Assembly: GCA_007695095.1 (NCBI GenBank)
Contig: REEL01000136.1
Location: 1 to 34,098, forward strand
Direction of reading: 5' to 3'
Origin: Chitinophagaceae bacterium
GTDB lineage: Bacteria > Bacteroidota > Bacteroidia > Chitinophagales > REEL01
DNA length: 34,098 nucleotides
The position numbers were made by a program, and so were the translations under genes. The notes under the pieces were generated by a model that saw only the letters and a list, made by a program, of their open reading frames with translations, was not told where the DNA came from and did not search any database. Positions 9,242-31,944 of the stretch are shown piece by piece. Each line of letters starts with the position of its first letter. The first letter of the stretch is position 1.

Positions 9242-10420
9242 ATGAGAGATGTATTTATAGTATCCGCAGGGCGGACACCAATTGGAAGTTTTGGAGGATC
9301 GCTTTCCAAATTAACGGCAGTAGACCTTGGCGCTATAGTTATCAAGGAAGCTGTTAAAAGAGCGGGCATTGAACCCGATTCGGTGCAGGAAGTTTTCATG
9401 GGCAATGTAATTAGCGCTAATGTGGGTCAGGCTCCTGCCAAGCAGGCTGCTTTAAAAGCAGGACTTTCTGTTAACACTCCCTGTACAACAATCAATAAAG
9501 TTTGTGCCTCGGGGATGAAAGCTATCATGCTGGCAGCACAAAGTGTGATGTTGGGAGATAATGACATAGTTGTAGCCGGTGGCATGGAAAGCATGTCGAA
9601 CATTCCTTATTATGCAGAAAACGCCCGCTGGGGTTTGCGATTAGGAAATGCCAATATGGTTGATGGATTGCTAAGAGACGGATTAATGGATCCTTATAAA
9701 GGATATCATATGGGTAATGCAGCTGAGATATGCGCTGTTGACTGCAATATTTCCAGAGAAGAACAGGATAAATATGCTGTAGAAGCCTATAAAAGAACGG
9801 CTGCAGCTTATGACGCAGGTTACTTTAATGATGAATTGGTAGAAGTGGAAGTTCCACAAAGAAAAGGCGATCCCATCATCGTAAAAGAAGATGAAGAGTA
9901 CAAAAAAGTAAACTTTGATAAAATTGGTTCTTTAAGACCGGCTTTCAAAAAAGATGGAACTGTTACGGCAGCAAATGCTTCAAAAATTAATGATGGCGCT
10001 GCAGCTGTTGTTTTGATGAGTAAGGAAATGGTCGAAAAAACAGGAGCAAAGCCTTTGGCAAAAATAATCAGCTATGCTGATGCTTCTCAAGACCCTGAAC
10101 AATTTACAACTACACCGGCAAAGGCAATGCCCAAAGCAATTGAGAAAGGAAAGTTAAATCAAAGTGACATCGATTATTTTGAAATTAATGAGGCATTCTC
10201 GGTAGTTTCTTTGGCTAATATTCAAAAAATGAAACTTGACCCTTCAAAAGTTAATGTTTTTGGTGGAGCTGTTTCAATTGGACACCCCATAGGTGTTTCC
10301 GGTGCCAGAATAATTATAACTTTAATCTCTGTCTTAAATCATAAAAACGGAAAATTAGGATGTGCCGGAATATGCAATGGCGGCGGCGGTGCTTCGGCTA
10401 TGGTTATTGAAAAAATCTGA
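9242..10420 (+). CDS. atoB: Acetyl-CoA C-acetyltransferase (thiolase)
   Basis: 392 residues, the normal length for a biosynthetic or degradative thiolase. It condenses two acetyl-CoA to acetoacetyl-CoA, or runs in reverse (EC 2.3.1.9). The nucleophile C88 lies in NKVCASG, H348 in GHPIG and the acid/base C378 in ICNGGGGAS, matching the spacing of the Zoogloea enzyme. The N terminus MRDVFIVSAGRTPIGSFGG is typical and supports the ATG at 9242. An AtoE-like short-chain fatty acid transporter gene lies about 3 kb downstream, which hints at acetoacetate or butyrate metabolism (inference). It is separated from cinA by a stem-loop and a promoter candidate. Confidence 0.95.
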   Translation: MRDVFIVSAGRTPIGSFGGSLSKLTAVDLGAIVIKEAVKRAGIEPDSVQEVFMGNVISANVGQAPAKQAALKAGLSVNTPCTTINKVCASGMKAIMLAAQSVMLGDNDIVVAGGMESMSNIPYYAENARWGLRLGNANMVDGLLRDGLMDPYKGYHMGNAAEICAVDCNISREEQDKYAVEAYKRTAAAYDAGYFNDELVEVEVPQRKGDPIIVKEDEEYKKVNFDKIGSLRPAFKKDGTVTAANASKINDGAAAVVLMSKEMVEKTGAKPLAKIISYADASQDPEQFTTTPAKAMPKAIEKGKLNQSDIDYFEINEAFSVVSLANIQKMKLDPSKVNVFGGAVSIGHPIGVSGARIIITLISVLNHKNGKLGCAGICNGGGGASAMVIEKI

Positions 10421-14770: not shown

Positions 14771-15649
14771 TTATCTTCTGATACTTATGCGATTGGTATG
14801 TCTGAAATCTGCTGATTTAACTTCAAAAATATACATACCGTTTGAAAGGTGATTCGGGATATCAATGCTAATTTCTTTATTACCTCTCTCAACCTGAGGA
14901 ATCGTTTGCTGATAAACCCGTGTGCCTAAAACATCATACAGATTAATTTCAAAGCTTGTAGTTCTATCTGTTTCTACTAAAATAAAGAATCGGTTAGTAA
15001 CAGGATTGGGGCCGGCTCTTACAACTCTTTTCTGTAAATTCTTTGAAGCAATATCACGTGCAGAAACAGCCGTATAGTCCAAAGAAACATAATCAATATG
15101 AATTTCGCCCTCTGTAAACTGATTGTAAATAGTGCTTATGGCAACCACAACTATTGAATCCGGAGTTCCCTCCTCTGTATAGCTAATAACGGCCTCAAAA
15201 GGAGCAAATGACTGAGTAGTACCTCCAAATAAAGCAGCACCTTCACCTATGAGTACATTGTTTTTATAAGCAGAAATCCCAACCGCTGCCGAATCTCCGG
15301 GAAGTAAGTTTGTCTGAACAGAACCTCTTAAAACATGTGGTTTTTGAGAAACAGACATTCCTTTTTGTATAAATGCCGGATAATTACCCTCCGCTCCATC
15401 AATATCAGTACGATTAAATGTCACTAACTGAACAGAGTAATCTCCCTGATTAGCCATAGTACTTTTATTTACCCCAAAAGGACCATTAGGTGTAAATGCA
15501 TGTATATAAAAATCGCTATTTTCCCAGGCTATTGGTTCGTCAAATCCTCTGTCGTCTGTCCATTGTGAAAAATCGGAGTTAGGCAACTGAACAGCATATA
15601 GAAAAGTAATTGTTAAAAAGGAAAAGAGAGTAAGTAGAATTGCTTTCAT
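14771..15649 (-). CDS. Secreted protein with T9SS type A sorting domain
   Basis: 292 residues. A Sec signal peptide (about 1-19) is followed by a beta-sandwich-like region (20-195) whose opening (LPNSDFSQWTDDRGFDEPIAWENSD) resembles carbohydrate-binding-like or PCMD-type jelly-roll domains. The last 80 residues form a T9SS C-terminal domain: RAGPNPVTNRFFI, INLYDVLGTRVYQQ, LSNGMYIFEVKS and a final SIRR. The sorting domain directs outer-membrane translocation and surface attachment or release. No catalytic motif is seen, so the passenger function is unknown. It lies 72 nt upstream of the AtoE-like gene on the same strand. Confidence 0.85.
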   Translation of the reverse strand: MKAILLTLFSFLTITFLYAVQLPNSDFSQWTDDRGFDEPIAWENSDFYIHAFTPNGPFGVNKSTMANQGDYSVQLVTFNRTDIDGAEGNYPAFIQKGMSVSQKPHVLRGSVQTNLLPGDSAAVGISAYKNNVLIGEGAALFGGTTQSFAPFEAVISYTEEGTPDSIVVVAISTIYNQFTEGEIHIDYVSLDYTAVSARDIASKNLQKRVVRAGPNPVTNRFFILVETDRTTSFEINLYDVLGTRVYQQTIPQVERGNKEISIDIPNHLSNGMYIFEVKSADFRHTNRISIRR

Positions 15650-25997: not shown

Positions 25998-26108
25998 ATG
26001 AATTTCAAGGCTTTCGGAAATAAAGGAAAATATTATCTGCTGATAAACAAGAATTTCCCGGTTAGAAGTAAACGAACTATAACTATTATATTTGTCTCAA
26101 TAACATGA
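25998..26108 (+). CDS. Putative 36-residue leader ORF
   Basis: An ATG frame of 36 codons, rich in Lys, Ile and aromatic residues, with the C-terminal stretch RTITIIFVSIT. Its TGA at 26106-26108 overlaps the GT2 ATG as ATGA, the arrangement used for translational coupling. There is no recognisable homology or ribosome binding site. It may be chance in AT-rich DNA. Confidence 0.25.
   Translation: MNFKAFGNKGKYYLLINKNFPVRSKRTITIIFVSIT
26087..26094 (+). promoter_or_regulatory. Second candidate -7 box before GT2 (TATATTTG)
   Basis: It matches TANNTTTG and ends 10 nt before the GT2 ATG. It would give a nearly leaderless mRNA. The -33 box is weak, so the upstream candidate at 25982 may be used instead. 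Confidence 0.35.
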
Positions 26109-27049
26109 AAAAAGTAAGTATTTTATTACCGGTTTTTAATGAAGAAGACAATATAAATCAGATTTATAAAGCAATTAAGGAAAATATTCCGGCGAATTAT
26201 TTAACTGACTTTATTTTTATAGATGACGGAAGCAGTGATAACTCACTTAATGTTATTAAAGAACTGGCAATTGAAAACTCTGATGTAAGCTTTATTTCTT
26301 TAACCAGGAACTTTGGTCATCAGGCAGCTCTGATGGCCGGTCTTCAAATGGCAAAAGGAGATATAATAATTACTATGGATGCCGACTTTCAAGATCCACC
26401 TGACAAAATATCTGATTTTTTTGAACTGTATGAATCCGGAAAAAAAATTGTCTATGGCAAAAGAGTTAGCAGAAAAAATGATGGTTTTGTTAAAAGACTT
26501 ACAGCCAAATGGTATTATAAAATTCAAAAACTAAGCTCCGGATACGATATACTTGAAAATGTAGGCGATTTCAGACTCATGGATAAAGAAGTAGTCGATA
26601 ATCTTCTAAAAATGAATGAAAAGTCCATTTATTTGAGGGGTATGATTTCATGGATGGGCTTTCCTTATGGTCTGGTAGAATATGAAAGACCGGTCAGAAA
26701 AAGCGGTGAAACAAAATATTCCCTGATTAAAATGATTAGCCTTGCTATGAATGGAATTCTTAGTTTTTCATTTCTCCCACTTAAAATAGGTTTTTTTATA
26801 GGGATTCTCAGCATGGGTTTGGGTGCCTCTTTTTTAACATATATCATTTACGATGTACTTATTAACAATGAAGTCTACCCCCTTTTTAAATGGTTAGTCG
26901 TAATTTTATTCATTTTTGTAGGTTTTCTTTTTACCCTTTTATGGATTTTATCTGAATACATAGGGAAGATATACTATGAAAATCTAAACCGACCTATTTT
27001 TGTGGTGAATGAAACATCTGTTAATCAAAAAGGGGAAACGCAAAGCTGA
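26105..27049 (+). CDS. GT2 glycosyltransferase, polyprenyl-phosphate sugar synthase type
   Basis: 314 residues. The N-terminal GT-A domain (1-215) has ILLPVFNEEDNI, DDGSSD at 40-45, the metal-binding D92-A-D94 in MDADFQDPP, and RPVRKSGETKY near 230. Two C-terminal TM helices follow (about 228-258 and 262-290). This is the GtrB/ArnC/DPM1-like layout: transfer of a sugar from a nucleotide donor to undecaprenyl phosphate at the inner membrane. It is the first gene of a tight operon (5 nt to the next gene). Its product would be a natural donor for the divergent GT-C protein (inference). Which sugar is used cannot be told. Confidence 0.92.
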   Translation: MKKVSILLPVFNEEDNINQIYKAIKENIPANYLTDFIFIDDGSSDNSLNVIKELAIENSDVSFISLTRNFGHQAALMAGLQMAKGDIIITMDADFQDPPDKISDFFELYESGKKIVYGKRVSRKNDGFVKRLTAKWYYKIQKLSSGYDILENVGDFRLMDKEVVDNLLKMNEKSIYLRGMISWMGFPYGLVEYERPVRKSGETKYSLIKMISLAMNGILSFSFLPLKIGFFIGILSMGLGASFLTYIIYDVLINNEVYPLFKWLVVILFIFVGFLFTLLWILSEYIGKIYYENLNRPIFVVNETSVNQKGETQS

Positions 27050-27054
27050 TTTGC

Positions 27055-28218
27055 ATGCAAAAATTAAAAATCTTAATACTGAATTATGAATATCCCCCTT
27101 TAGGCGGCGGAGCAGGAATTATTAGTCGTTATCAGGCGGAAAAACTAGCTGAATTTGGTCACAAAGTTGACGTAATCACCTGTTCTGAAAAAAATAAATT
27201 CTATATAGATGACGTAAATTCTAATCTCAGAATTATTCGTTTAAATGCACACAGGCCTTACTATTTTAAATCCGGCATTAGAGAAAAAATTGATTGGATT
27301 TTAAAAGCTGAAAAATACACAGAAAATTTATCTGAAAATCAATACGACTTTTGCCTGGCACATTTCAGCATACCGGGAGGATATGTGGCTGAAAAATTGA
27401 AAAAAAGAATTAGTCTTAAATATGCGGTTATCTCTCATGCTCATGATATTCCCTGGTTTTGCATAGAAGAAATGTTTTGGTATCATCTTTTCAGCTATCC
27501 AATCATTAAGAAGGTCTGTAATAATGCTTCTTTGTTGTTTGTGCAGTCCAATGCTATGGAAGTTAATGCAAAAAACTTCCTTAAAAACCAGCAAGAAAAG
27601 CTGGTCAAAATTCCGAATGGCTCAGATGCTATGAGCTTTTTTAAACCGGAAAACAAAACAAAATCGGATAAAATAAAAATTGTCTTTGCAGGAAGACTTG
27701 TGAAACAAAAGCAACCCCTGTTTGCATTAGAAGTTGCGGCAACACTTAAAAAGCAAAATGTAAATTTTGAACTAATTTTCGCCGGTGATGGACCACTTCG
27801 AAAAAAAATTGAATATCGAATTCAAAAATTAAACTTAAACGATTGCGTAACAATAAAAGGCTGGATATCGAAAGCTGAAATTGTAGCGCTCTATCATCAA
27901 TCCGATATACTTCTGAGTACTTCTCAAAACGAAGGTATGTCAATTGCAATTCTGGAGGCTTTATTTTCGGGATTATATGTAATAACCACAGGTGTTAGCG
28001 GCAATCCGGAACTAATTAAACATCAAATAAACGGAGAAATCTGTATGACTGATCCATCGGCCTTTGCAAAAGCCATTAAATACTACATTTCAGATGTGGA
28101 AGAAAATCAGGAGAGGAAAGAGTTTTACAATAATTTTATAGAAAAATTTGAATGGACTAAGCTTGTAAAAGAATATGAAAGTGCAATTTTAAATTCTTTG
28201 AATGATGAAACTTTATGA
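27055..28218 (+). CDS. GT4-family glycosyltransferase (first)
   Basis: 387 residues with a GT-B fold. The N-terminal half has NYEYPPLGGGAGIISRYQAEKLAEFGHKV in part (9-37), and a His-rich acceptor region ISHAHD lies near 126-131. The C-terminal donor-binding half (about 205-375) contains FAGRLVKQKQP and the E293-x7-E301 motif in NEGMSIAILEAL, typical of retaining GT4 enzymes. No TM segment is seen, so it is probably peripheral at the inner membrane. The next gene overlaps by 4 nt (ATGA), indicating coupled translation. It probably adds a sugar to a lipid-linked glycan; substrates unknown. Confidence 0.92.
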   Translation: MQKLKILILNYEYPPLGGGAGIISRYQAEKLAEFGHKVDVITCSEKNKFYIDDVNSNLRIIRLNAHRPYYFKSGIREKIDWILKAEKYTENLSENQYDFCLAHFSIPGGYVAEKLKKRISLKYAVISHAHDIPWFCIEEMFWYHLFSYPIIKKVCNNASLLFVQSNAMEVNAKNFLKNQQEKLVKIPNGSDAMSFFKPENKTKSDKIKIVFAGRLVKQKQPLFALEVAATLKKQNVNFELIFAGDGPLRKKIEYRIQKLNLNDCVTIKGWISKAEIVALYHQSDILLSTSQNEGMSIAILEALFSGLYVITTGVSGNPELIKHQINGEICMTDPSAFAKAIKYYISDVEENQERKEFYNNFIEKFEWTKLVKEYESAILNSLNDETL

Positions 28219-29303
28219 GTAAAATACAAGTAAATACCTTGCATATAATAGACAATCTTTGGTTGGGTGGAGCCCAAACTGTTGTTAAAGGGATATTTGA
28301 AAAATACAGTCAAAATGAGAACTTTCATCTTTTTGTATTAAGAGATACGGATGAAAAAATGTCAGTTGAAAACAAAAATGTTACCGTTTATCATTCATCA
28401 TCAAGATTTCACTTCCGTGCTACGATAAGACAAATTCAAAAAATTATAAAAAAAGAAAACATTGAATTACTGCATTGTCATTTGCCGAGAAGTCAGTATA
28501 CCGGAATAATTATAAAACTAATACACAAAAAAATAAAACTGGTATTTCATGAACAAGGAGATGTTATAGACCCTTTTCCTTTAAATTTACCGGCTTATAA
28601 ATTTTTCGGTAACCTAATCGAACATGTAATTTGCTGCTCAGATTTTGTCAAAAACACACTGGAAAAGAAAAGTAGATTTCCCGGAGAGAAAATTTCAGTT
28701 CTATACAATTTTGTTGACAGAGATGTTTTTACGGCAAGCGATAGGGTACCCGGTAAAAAAATCAATATAGGTTTTGCCGGCAGACTTACACAACATAAAG
28801 GTTGGCGAGATTTTTTAGAAGCTACGGCTAAACTTTCACAAAAACGACCGAATATTTGTATTCATATTGCAGGTACGGGAAAAGATAAAAGAAAAATGCT
28901 GGATACAGCGAAATCTCTCTTTCCTGATTCTCAATTTATGTACCATGGTTTTGTAAAAAAAATGGATGATTTCTACCGGGAAATGGATTTCATCTGCATG
29001 CCCTCCCATCGGGAACCTGTCGGAATGGTTCATATAGAAGCGATGGCAAGTGGTAAAATCGTAATTGCATCAGATGTTCCCGGAATGAATGAACTTCTTA
29101 TTCATAATAAAAATGCATATTTATTTGAGGCTGGTAATATTAATGATTTGCAAATCAAATTATCAAAAGCTTTAGATAATTCAGAAAAAAACAGCTTTTT
29201 ATTAAAAAATGCAGAAAAGCTGCTCACTAAAGTTAGCTTTTCTGCATTTGATGAAAATCTTCAAAAGATATATCAGAATAAAATCTTAGCGCCTGATAAT
29301 TAG
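28215..29303 (+). CDS. GT4-family glycosyltransferase (second)
   Basis: 362 residues with a GT-B fold. The N terminus is LHIIDNLWLGGAQTVVKGI (9-27), the donor domain starts INIGFAGRLTQHKGW (184-197), and the catalytic-type glutamates are E267-x7-E275 in EPVGMVHIEAM. The first five residues follow the ATGA overlap with the preceding GT4. It is the last gene of the GT operon. Its 3' end overlaps the convergent T9SS gene by 18 nt and contains that gene's terminator hairpin, which here encodes the stretch around KNAEKLLTKVSFSAFDE. Together with the GT2 and the first GT4 it suggests assembly of a short glycan. Confidence 0.92.
   Translation: MSKIQVNTLHIIDNLWLGGAQTVVKGIFEKYSQNENFHLFVLRDTDEKMSVENKNVTVYHSSSRFHFRATIRQIQKIIKKENIELLHCHLPRSQYTGIIIKLIHKKIKLVFHEQGDVIDPFPLNLPAYKFFGNLIEHVICCSDFVKNTLEKKSRFPGEKISVLYNFVDRDVFTASDRVPGKKINIGFAGRLTQHKGWRDFLEATAKLSQKRPNICIHIAGTGKDKRKMLDTAKSLFPDSQFMYHGFVKKMDDFYREMDFICMPSHREPVGMVHIEAMASGKIVIASDVPGMNELLIHNKNAYLFEAGNINDLQIKLSKALDNSEKNSFLLKNAEKLLTKVSFSAFDENLQKIYQNKILAPDN
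29204..29249 (-). terminator. Rho-independent terminator of the T9SS gene, inside the GT4 coding region
   Basis: On the minus strand, a perfect 15-bp stem (arms 29249-29235 and 29221-29207, core GCAGAAAAGCT/AGCTTTTCTGC) with a 13-nt loop is followed by a T run (six T counting the last bases of the arm). It begins 37 nt after the stop codon of the gene ending at 29286. It lies within the last 100 nt of the convergent glycosyltransferase gene. On the plus strand the hairpin is preceded by A6 but has only a short T run after it. Confidence 0.75.
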
Positions 29304-30989
29304 TTTTGATACCTGAAGCTTTCCTGAACTTTCAGTAATAACAAAGTATTCACCCGGTGCTAAATGGTTCACCTGAATTGTATGTTCAGTAAAGTAATTA
29401 TTTAATGCAAAGCTTTCGATAACACGGCCTTTAATATCCGAAATATAAATATTTTTGATACTTTCTCCTGAGTTTTCCTCTATAATAAAATAATCAGAAG
29501 CCGGATTCGGATAGATTTTTAGTTCACTCTCAGAAAAATCAGCTTCACCAATAAAAGTGCAGTTATCCACTACTATACGAATAGTATCTCTTGAAAAGCA
29601 ATCATTGGTTAATGATTGAACAGTATAAATTACCTGATACTCACCAGGACCGGTAAAAGAAGGATTAAAGTTATTGCTCGTAACCCCAAAGCCTTGGTAA
29701 ATCCCACCTATAGGTGTAACCAATTGATTCAGATTAAAAACAGGATCATCATCACAAAAGCTTTCTTCCGGTTGGTTAACGGTTAACTCCGGTTTTTCTT
29801 TTATCAATAGATTTATAGAATCTGTAGCAGAGCAATTAAATTCATTAGTCACAACGACAGTATAAACATTTGATTCGGTAGCTTCCAGTATTTGTGAGTT
29901 GCTGCCATCAGACCACATAAAGTCAGCACCTTCATTTGCGGCATCTACAAATACAGGGCCTCCGCAAATTTCAATATCAGCACCCAAATCTACCACCGGA
30001 ACAGGATTCACTGTAACATCTATAGTATCCCGGGAAATGCACCCGTATACATTTTCGGCTAATACAGTAACTAATTGAGAGGTATTTACCTCAAATAAAC
30101 TATCTGTAATTTGGTCATTCCAGATAACTACATCCTTATCAGAACCCGCTTGAAAAACAATTCCTCCACAAACAGTTGTATCGGCACTTGTTATATTCGT
30201 TTCAGGAAAAGGGCTAACAATTATTTCCGCTTCTACCGGATCTGTTTGACAGTTTTGTATGTAATTAATTTTGCCACTCCATCTGCGGGGAGAAAGGGGA
30301 TTTGTAAATGGATACTGATTACCGGTTGCTTCTAATAATTGTATATTATCATCCTGTACATGTATATTTCCAAGACCGGTTCCACTAGTATAACGCTGAA
30401 CATTACCGGATGTAGAAGTCAAATAAAATGAGTAATTATCACCGGCAGGAATAGATACATTTACATCAATAGGTACAGGCGTTAAAATATCTTGTGGGTT
30501 TGCCGTAACAAATGCAGATCCGACTAAAGTCCAGGCAGATGGAGTTTGTTCAAATCCCTGAAAACTTCCTTGCTTGTAATAAATTTCGTAGTTGGTACTT
30601 GTAGTTAAATAAACTTCAAAGCTTAAAATTTCAACGTTTTCCAGAGCGACAATTTCAATCATATTACCGGGAAAAGTTGATCCAAATAAAGCCGGAGTTT
30701 CTAGATCTGTTTCTTCACTACCTCCTAATGTAACAAAATAAGATGTGGTCTCTGTTAAAACCGGTGTTACAAATATATTTCCGGTGTCTAATAAATTGCC
30801 TCCTGTTTCCATATCAAACCAGCTAACTTCAGAACCTTGTACTTCCAAAGTTACACTTCCGGAGCCACAAATCGTATCACCGGATAATTCAGGTGGCTGC
30901 TGAGCAGTACATTGAGCACTCAGTTTGCTTGTTGTAAACGTCAATAAAAGCAGAAAAACAAAAAAATAAGTAAATTTTAGCAGTTTCAT
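29286..30989 (-). CDS. Secreted Ig-like repeat protein with T9SS type A sorting domain
   Basis: 567 residues. A signal peptide (about 1-25) is followed by an Ig-like module (CGSGSVTLEVQGSEVSWFDMETGG, about 42-70), a beta-rich middle part with a possible lectin-like domain (90-250), and three PKD/Ig-like modules with recurrent IDVTVNPVPVVDLGADIEICGG-type segments (250-470). A T9SS C-terminal domain ends it (LKIYPNPASDYFII, ISDIKGRVIE, LAPGEYFVIT, KLIIRR). The paired cysteines in each module suggest disulfides. The likely role is a surface adhesin or structural protein; no enzyme motif is seen. Confidence 0.87.
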   Translation of the reverse strand: MKLLKFTYFFVFLLLLTFTTSKLSAQCTAQQPPELSGDTICGSGSVTLEVQGSEVSWFDMETGGNLLDTGNIFVTPVLTETTSYFVTLGGSEETDLETPALFGSTFPGNMIEIVALENVEILSFEVYLTTSTNYEIYYKQGSFQGFEQTPSAWTLVGSAFVTANPQDILTPVPIDVNVSIPAGDNYSFYLTSTSGNVQRYTSGTGLGNIHVQDDNIQLLEATGNQYPFTNPLSPRRWSGKINYIQNCQTDPVEAEIIVSPFPETNITSADTTVCGGIVFQAGSDKDVVIWNDQITDSLFEVNTSQLVTVLAENVYGCISRDTIDVTVNPVPVVDLGADIEICGGPVFVDAANEGADFMWSDGSNSQILEATESNVYTVVVTNEFNCSATDSINLLIKEKPELTVNQPEESFCDDDPVFNLNQLVTPIGGIYQGFGVTSNNFNPSFTGPGEYQVIYTVQSLTNDCFSRDTIRIVVDNCTFIGEADFSESELKIYPNPASDYFIIEENSGESIKNIYISDIKGRVIESFALNNYFTEHTIQVNHLAPGEYFVITESSGKLQVSKLIIRR

Positions 30990-31192: not shown

Positions 31193-31909
31193 TTAACGCA
31201 AAACATGTATTTTTTCAATACACTCACCTTCATTAGTCTTTAAAAATAAAAAATAGGTGCCGTTTGCTAAATCCGCGAGATTTAATATCTGTTTATTTTT
31301 TTCCCAATAAACTAAACTACCTCTCACATCAAAAATTTTCACTTCGTTTTCTGAATTAAAATCAGAATTAATCGAAGAATTAAAGATCCTCAAATTATCT
31401 TCAACCAAAGGGTTAGGGTGGAAATTACAAGCAGCTTTAACCTTAGACTCTTGAACATTCGTAGAAGATTTTTTGATATTAACCGTATAAGTAACATTAA
31501 AGGTGTCTGCCGGGGCATTTACATCCCACAACTTAAAACTAAAATTAGCCAATCCGGCTTTATGATTTGGATATACCTGAGCAATAAAAACAGGTATATA
31601 ATCTAAATCCTGCTCTCTGTGCAAAACATAAATGCTACTTTCAGGAACACTATCTTCAAAAAAGACATCTCCTACTTCCATGGTGAATCCCCATTCTTCC
31701 GGGAAATTTTTCTTCAAATCACGTTTCCAGGCTATCTCCACGCTATCCTGAGTTAGGTTTGTAAAAAAACTCACCTGATATACGACATGTTCTGTATCAA
31801 AATCCTCTATATAAAAATTAGTTGGTTGTAAATCAAATCCCGGCTGTCCATTGCAAAAAGGAATAAGAAGAAAATAGCTCAAAAAAAGAGAGACAAGATA
31901 GTTTTGCAT
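31193..31909 (-). CDS. Secreted protein with T9SS type A-like sorting domain
   Basis: 238 residues from the ATG at 31909. A signal peptide (MQNYLVSLFLSYFLLIPFCNG) is followed by a beta-sandwich region (about 20-140) that resembles a transport-associated or Ig-like fold with no clear family. The C-terminal sorting domain is CNFHPNPLVEDNLRIF, VKIFDVRGSLVYW, LADLANGTYFLFLKT, ending HVLR. A frame extension to TTG at 31939 exists, but that TTG is part of a TAATTTTG promoter-like box, so the ATG is preferred. It lies about 200 nt upstream of the Ig-like T9SS gene on the same strand. Confidence 0.82.
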   Translation of the reverse strand: MQNYLVSLFLSYFLLIPFCNGQPGFDLQPTNFYIEDFDTEHVVYQVSFFTNLTQDSVEIAWKRDLKKNFPEEWGFTMEVGDVFFEDSVPESSIYVLHREQDLDYIPVFIAQVYPNHKAGLANFSFKLWDVNAPADTFNVTYTVNIKKSSTNVQESKVKAACNFHPNPLVEDNLRIFNSSINSDFNSENEVKIFDVRGSLVYWEKNKQILNLADLANGTYFLFLKTNEGECIEKIHVLR

Positions 31910-31936
31910 GATTATTTTTTTTAGAAAACTAAAATA

Positions 31937-31944
31937 CAAAATTA
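31937..31944 (-). promoter_or_regulatory. Candidate -7 box (TAATTTTG) of the T9SS gene at 31193
   Basis: It matches TANNTTTG on the minus strand 27 nt before the preferred ATG at 31909. The -33 box is not clear. Confidence 0.35.

Follow-up and report, generated by a model that had tools for sequence, protein, structure and literature searches.

An intrinsic (Rho-independent) terminator is a stable stem-loop that lies a few tens of nucleotides past a stop codon and is followed straight away by a U-tract. Ju et al. in 2019 reportedly described bidirectional terminators of convergent genes in E. coli. Both intrinsic and bidirectional terminators at convergent genes are treated as standard in the available portions of two papers (PMC7566282, PMC12207403), and the bidirectional terminators of Zymomonas mobilis serve, in the portion of that paper available to us, a gene that meets its neighbor tail to tail (PMC7566282). 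Excludons and other overlapping convergent 3' ends lead to antisense overlap of two transcripts (PMC7154746, PMC7821165, each available in part). In Bacillus cereus, the available part of one study mentions three convergent cases with the terminator inside the second gene (PMC5381666), a topology apparently identical to that of the gene pair considered here. These cases were excluded from that analysis and are mentioned in its methods without description, and the part available makes no link to secretion cargo; they suggest that gene-internal terminators of this kind have been met before. TransTermHP gives scores to gene-internal structures, and for tail-to-tail regions of less than 500 nt its search covers 500 nt beyond the stop codon (PMC1852404, in the part available).

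Of 12 transcripts analyzed at convergent pairs in Rickettsia prowazekii, 11 terminated diffusely or read through into the opposing gene (PMC3027695, as given in an excerpt), so predicting a terminator does not establish termination. Antisense RNA in Flavobacterium psychrophilum is attributed, in the available part of the study, mostly to imperfect termination and non-canonical starts (PMC9723704). The portions available of three further papers (PMC9239193, PMC6131387, PMC10994844) yielded nothing on gene-internal terminators, and none of the titles or abstract openings among the matches listed connects T9SS cargo genes with terminators that are strong or lie inside genes.

Here we describe a hairpin that is very probably a one-way intrinsic (Rho-independent) terminator of a T9SS cargo gene, embedded in the codons of a convergent GT4-type glycosyltransferase gene. 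Unlike the intrinsic terminators outlined above, it lies wholly in the coding sequence of the convergent gene and has an A/T-rich stem and a 13-nt loop. It differs from bidirectional terminators in being one-way, with no U-tract on the plus strand, and in not being intergenic. It differs from excludons in that the T9SS transcript would enter the GT4 gene by only ~100 nt. A terminator inside a convergent neighbor is thus of a known kind, the GT4/T9SS instance is new, and we regard the association with T9SS genes as a lead.

Results

The T9SS cargo gene and the GT4 gene overlap tail to tail

The window, meaning the whole stretch of DNA that was analyzed, comprises 34,098 nt of the forward strand of contig REEL01000136.1 from a Chitinophagaceae bacterium (assembly GCA_007695095.1). 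All genes in this study are simple ORF calls from a custom script. The GT4 gene is the final member of a GT2-GT4-GT4 run on the plus strand (26105-29303), and the Pfam glycosyltransferase match covers residues 174-335 of its protein. The gene facing it encodes a T9SS cargo protein with a C-terminal sorting domain that is matched by PF18962 (1.1e-13, residues 492-565) and also by TIGR04183 (Table 1). The preliminary description gave the tail-to-tail overlap of the two genes as 18 nt, with the T9SS stop at 29286, and the ORF coordinates bear this out.

Table 1. Features of the T9SS/GT4 locus, and other genes of the same genome with a strong hairpin inside a close convergent neighbor (recoding values uncorrected for the selection of sites that hold a hairpin)
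Feature	Coordinates	Strand	Description
GT4-type glycosyltransferase gene	28215-29303	+	362 aa; PF00534 5.6e-35
T9SS cargo gene	29286-30989	-	567 aa; Ig_7 domain and C-terminal Por_Secre_tail sorting domain
Putative terminator stem, 5' arm (minus-strand sense)	29235-29249	-	Starts 36 nt past the T9SS stop codon
Loop, 13 nt	29222-29234	-	Small 3-bp inner stem predicted
Putative terminator stem, 3' arm	29207-29221	-	Perfect complement of the 5' arm
U6 tract (T6 in the minus strand)	29204-29209	-	29207-29209 also paired in the stem; then AAUAAAAA
T9SS gene	C132:28187-29890		Hairpin C132:29922-29962, inside a diphthamide-synthase-like gene (PF01902); recodings at observed energy 0/3000
T9SS gene	C148:43192-45051		Hairpin C148:45085-45117, inside a Mur-ligase-family gene (PF02875 and PF08245); recodings at observed energy 0/3000
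T9SS gene	C140:6921-11771		Hairpin C140:11801-11836, inside an AI-2E transporter-like gene (PF01594); recodings at observed energy 70/3000
Non-T9SS gene	C112:34621-35490		Hairpin C112:34557-34593, inside a shikimate-kinase-like gene (PF01202); recodings at observed energy 1/3000

No good plus-strand intrinsic terminator follows the GT2-GT4-GT4 run within 500 nt of its stop codon, the best candidate being a -7.2 structure at 29768-29792. Its transcript could therefore go antisense into the T9SS gene; it may also end by collision or by Rho, for which a gene is encoded in the same genome. Two more T9SS-sorted genes of the window, 31193-31939 and 14771-15649 (both minus strand), have no terminator-like hairpin at a threshold of -8 within 130 nt. 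We also note a strong hairpin (-20.7) that begins 13 nt 3' of the stop codon of the plus-strand gene at 9242-10420 and is followed by a poor T-run.

A perfect hairpin with a one-sided U-tract lies within GT4 codons

The preliminary description placed a perfect 15-bp hairpin and a T run inside the GT4 reading frame and took them for the terminator of the T9SS gene. As shown in Table 1, the two arms are 100% complementary and separated by a 13-nt spacer, and the hairpin is located entirely within GT4 codons 331-345 of 362. Read on the minus strand, which is the transcribed sense of the T9SS gene, it folds with -20.5 kcal/mol and its 3' arm passes into six T (GCATTTTTTAATAAA). The first three of these pair with AAA, leaving three unpaired U of the U6 tract right after the stem. 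Its start 36 nt past the stop codon and its U6, present on the minus strand only, give the structure the position and orientation expected of a T9SS gene terminator. On the plus strand the stem closes in three T and continues with GATGAAAA, so that the sequence at and after the stem end reads UUUGAUGAAAA. With only UUUG after the stem and no U-run, the hairpin is unlike a terminator for GT4, and it does not have the U-tracts on both strands that would make it bidirectional.

The 126-nt context of the hairpin folds with a z-score of -2.8 on the minus strand and of -4.7 (-33.8 kcal/mol) on the plus strand. Two features of the hairpin itself speak against a terminator: only 5 of the 15 stem pairs are G-C, and the loop measures 13 nt. 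A generic terminator scanner limited to loops of at most 8 nt did not return it. The further statement that this is the only terminator of the T9SS gene holds for strong terminators but needs qualifying, since a next distinct minus-strand candidate within 600 nt past the stop codon is found in a weak (-10.0) structure at 28888-28922.

The stem is not expected by chance or from family-typical residues

One alternative is a coincidence of GT4 coding, in which the self-complementarity of the motif N-A-E-K-L ... S-F-S-A-F is accidental and the hairpin has no role. The hairpin is the single one in the window with perfect arms of at least 11 bp (loop 3-25). Among 100 first-order Markov windows the mean number per window was 0.55 for arms of at least 11 bp and 0.01 for at least 14 bp, and arms of at least 15 bp did not occur. 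In 828 kb of this genome, a total that includes the window, 31 perfect hairpins have arms of at least 12 bp, of which 26 are intergenic, two are partly genic and three lie within genes. At arms of at least 15 bp, 12 of 13 hairpins are intergenic and the one embedded in GT4 stands alone in coding sequence. Among the 22 intergenic hairpins listed with arms of at least 13 bp, 16 began 20-39 nt past a stop codon (hand count).

Synonymous recoding of the 15 GT4 residues according to genome codon usage gave a mean energy of -7.9, which indicates that the GT4 protein sequence itself favors a stem. Stems of at least 15 bp arose in 58 of 20000 recodings and the observed energy was reached in 3 of 3000, values that are uncorrected for the selection of sites holding a hairpin; the peptide is thus permissive, and the stem is not forced by it. 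Although the residues at the stem are partly family-typical (KNA..., FS...), sampling residues from 36 GT4 homologues produced no stem above 11 bp in 50000 trials and never reached -20.5 in 5000 (lowest -19.3). At the aligned place in the homologues themselves, the longest stem is 9 bp and the lowest energy is -15.8. This set consists of 38 loci less two, namely L004, which is the GT4 gene itself again, and L021, for which the alignment is too short. The stem also uses some little-used synonymous codons, with AAG accounting for 22% of Lys, AGC for 13% of Ser and CTG for 12% of Leu in the genome. Since the Pfam match ends partway through the hairpin, protein constraint there may be modest. Taken together, the hairpin is not expected by chance or from family-typical GT4 residues. 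These results, the terminator-like features of the hairpin (a U-tract, the right strand, a suitable spacing from the T9SS stop codon), and the recurrence of the same arrangement at three other T9SS genes (see below) make coincidence an unlikely explanation.

A second alternative is that the hairpin acts mainly on the GT4 mRNA, as a shield of the 3' end, as a ribosome pause near the stop codon, or through pairing with the T9SS RNA to form an RNase III substrate. The plus strand does fold well, with the more negative z-score given above, and the stretch shared by the two transcripts would amount to at least about 100 nt. Against this, perfect stems of at least 12 bp are rarely found within genes in this genome (the 3 of 31 mentioned above), nothing ties the hairpin to GT4 function, and the stem is absent from the 36 GT4 homologues. 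We consider a principal role on the GT4 mRNA very unlikely; a lesser effect, such as the slowing of GT4 transcription or translation suggested in the preliminary description, may exist, as the stem forms in that mRNA too.

That the hairpin is a dispersed palindrome or a pair of uptake signals inserted into GT4 is scarcely credible: although uptake-signal pairs in Neisseria are argued to terminate transcription between convergent genes (PMC1852404, in the part available), the exact hairpin is present once in the genome and 8- to 10-mers of its arms occur at ~0.8 to 1.5 times expectation in 1.2 Mb, which largely refutes a repeat. Arm 12-mers are over-represented 3 to 6 times, for example TGCAGAAAAGCT with 4 against 0.7 expected, but these counts are tiny (3 to 8) and the two arms of the hairpin itself are among them; over-representation of the kind that marks an uptake signal was not found.

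Predicted strong terminators inside facing genes recur at other T9SS genes of the genome

We searched for a hairpin with a U-tract within 100 nt of the stop codon, calling it strong at E<=-12, in 1.206 Mb of the same genome (91 segments that amount to roughly one third of it). The sample is non-random, being made up of large contigs and the flanks of T9SS genes; in it, the 3' flank could be read for 139 T9SS genes and 823 others. The T9SS set derives from 150 scored candidates out of 213, two of the 150 falling below the family cut-off; four of the 150 places had no usable gene call and seven of the 146 placed genes had no 110-nt 3' flank in the sample. Strong terminators follow 39 of 139 T9SS genes versus 56 of 823 others, some of which may themselves be T9SS genes, and are thus about four times as frequent after T9SS genes (P 1e-11). 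Sense-strand control windows inside genes gave 0 at this threshold for T9SS genes and 8 for other genes. The 39 strong T9SS terminators begin 10-47 nt past the stop codon (median 24), a range that includes the 36 nt at the GT4 locus.

We then considered close convergent genes, defined by a tail-to-tail gap of less than 30 nt and at least 150 aa in both genes. Of these, 4 of 15 T9SS genes and 1 of 125 others have a strong terminator within their neighbor's coding sequence (Table 1). The arrangement seen at GT4 is therefore not unique, as it recurs at three other T9SS genes of the genome. Control windows shifted 120-480 nt deeper into the same neighbors gave 4 of 543 overall and 1 of 59 for T9SS neighbors alone; relative to the 4 of 543, the T9SS genes are enriched (P 2e-5) and the non-T9SS genes show no excess. 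Leaving out the case that faces GT4, the count is 3 of 14 (P 0.003 versus others). The 150-aa filter reduces the T9SS set from 19 to 15 and the others from 153 to 125, and the unfiltered sets give 5 of 19 and 2 of 153. The two strong-terminator cases among the genes removed are the T9SS gene C88:104114 and the non-T9SS gene C88:69116; the ORFs opposite them, 92 and 95 aa long, respectively, look spurious. Five convergent genes with a strong terminator only partly in the facing ORF (three T9SS, two other) were not counted. The Mur-ligase-family host is read as folC on the basis of its sequence. The AI-2E transporter-like host is the weakest case, as 70 of 3000 of its recodings reach the observed energy.

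Eleven of the 15 T9SS genes with a close convergent neighbor have no strong terminator inside it, which counts against reading the GT4 hairpin as a terminator. The T9SS association was moreover noticed in the same data used to test it; resting on small numbers from one genome, it is a lead.

Comparison with relatives

A search of 58 other genomes of the same order, the genome itself and a genome contig collection gave no GT4 orthologues usable for a codon alignment. The matches listed are distant: none exceeds 33% identity, and the similarity covers part of the protein.

From each of three other genomes (G046, G019 and G017) we sampled 400 kb and found only 4, 0 and 4 T9SS-like genes, respectively, too few to bear on the T9SS link, and strong terminators at 1/32, 1/78 and 0/44 close convergent genes, which is the control level (1, 2 and 1). 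Two sets of T9SS loci were also assembled, one of 30 loci from a single relative (G018) and one of single loci from each of 29 genomes, with locus L244 common to both. Strong terminators follow T9SS genes more often than other genes in both sets (21/32 versus 6/37 in G018; 14/32 versus 4/36 in the 29 genomes). None was found inside the close convergent neighbor of a T9SS gene (0/2 in G018 and 0/3 across the 29 genomes). Among close convergent non-T9SS genes, 1/10 in G018 and 1/9 in the 29 genomes have a terminator inside the neighbor, the facing ORFs being 134 and 97 aa long. In these small sets, the link between T9SS genes and gene-internal terminators is not reproduced.

For folC, taken as a stand-in for GT4, we read the antisense strand of the last 130 nt in 29 relatives, out of 54 other genomes with a match, for structures with E<=-12 and a T-tail. 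Such terminator-like structures are present in two of the 29, L272 (neighbor convergent at 146 nt) and L298 (neighbor co-directional), and in none of the ten relatives with a convergent gene at <30 nt (hand count). These relatives thus do not conserve the folC site, and structures of this type occur there without a tight convergent gene.

Discussion

We believe that the hairpin in the GT4 gene serves as a terminator of the T9SS gene, and the sequence points to how this could have come about. The usual place of terminators in this genome is ~20-35 nt past the stop codon, and as the T9SS gene overlaps the convergent GT4 gene, that place falls within the GT4 reading frame. A stem and U-tract would have settled in GT4 codons close to the C-terminal end of the protein, and we infer that these codons were shaped by selection on the ends of T9SS transcripts. 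In vivo, a minus-strand RNA polymerase would pass the T9SS stop codon, the 15-bp stem would form, and U6 would release the transcript near 29204, ~80 nt past the stop. A transcript ended there reaches ~100 nt into GT4. The GT4 mRNA has the same stem without the U-run, for which reason we propose that no termination takes place on that strand. The read-through described in Rickettsia prowazekii (PMC3027695, excerpt) is a reminder that predicted terminators at convergent pairs can fail.

A broader reading is that T9SS cargo genes of this lineage depend on unusually strong terminators, and that where such genes collide tail to tail with a neighbor, selection wrote the terminator into the neighbor's codons, including those of widespread folC-like and diphthamide-synthase-like genes. 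We offer this tentatively, as a possibility we rather doubt. If it is true, synonymous codon choice at those 3' ends is set by the transcription of the neighbor and not by the host gene. The FolC-like, diphthamide-synthase-like and AI-2E-transporter-like hosts are places for testing neighbor-driven selection on synonymous sites. Gene-internal terminators of this sort will be overlooked by predictors that scan only intergenic DNA or allow only short loops. The GT4/T9SS pair offers a clean case in which the same stretch of DNA holds a protein sequence on one strand and an apparent terminator on the other. A terminator inside the facing gene is an unusual but precedented economy, one that recurs at a few similar pairs in this genome.
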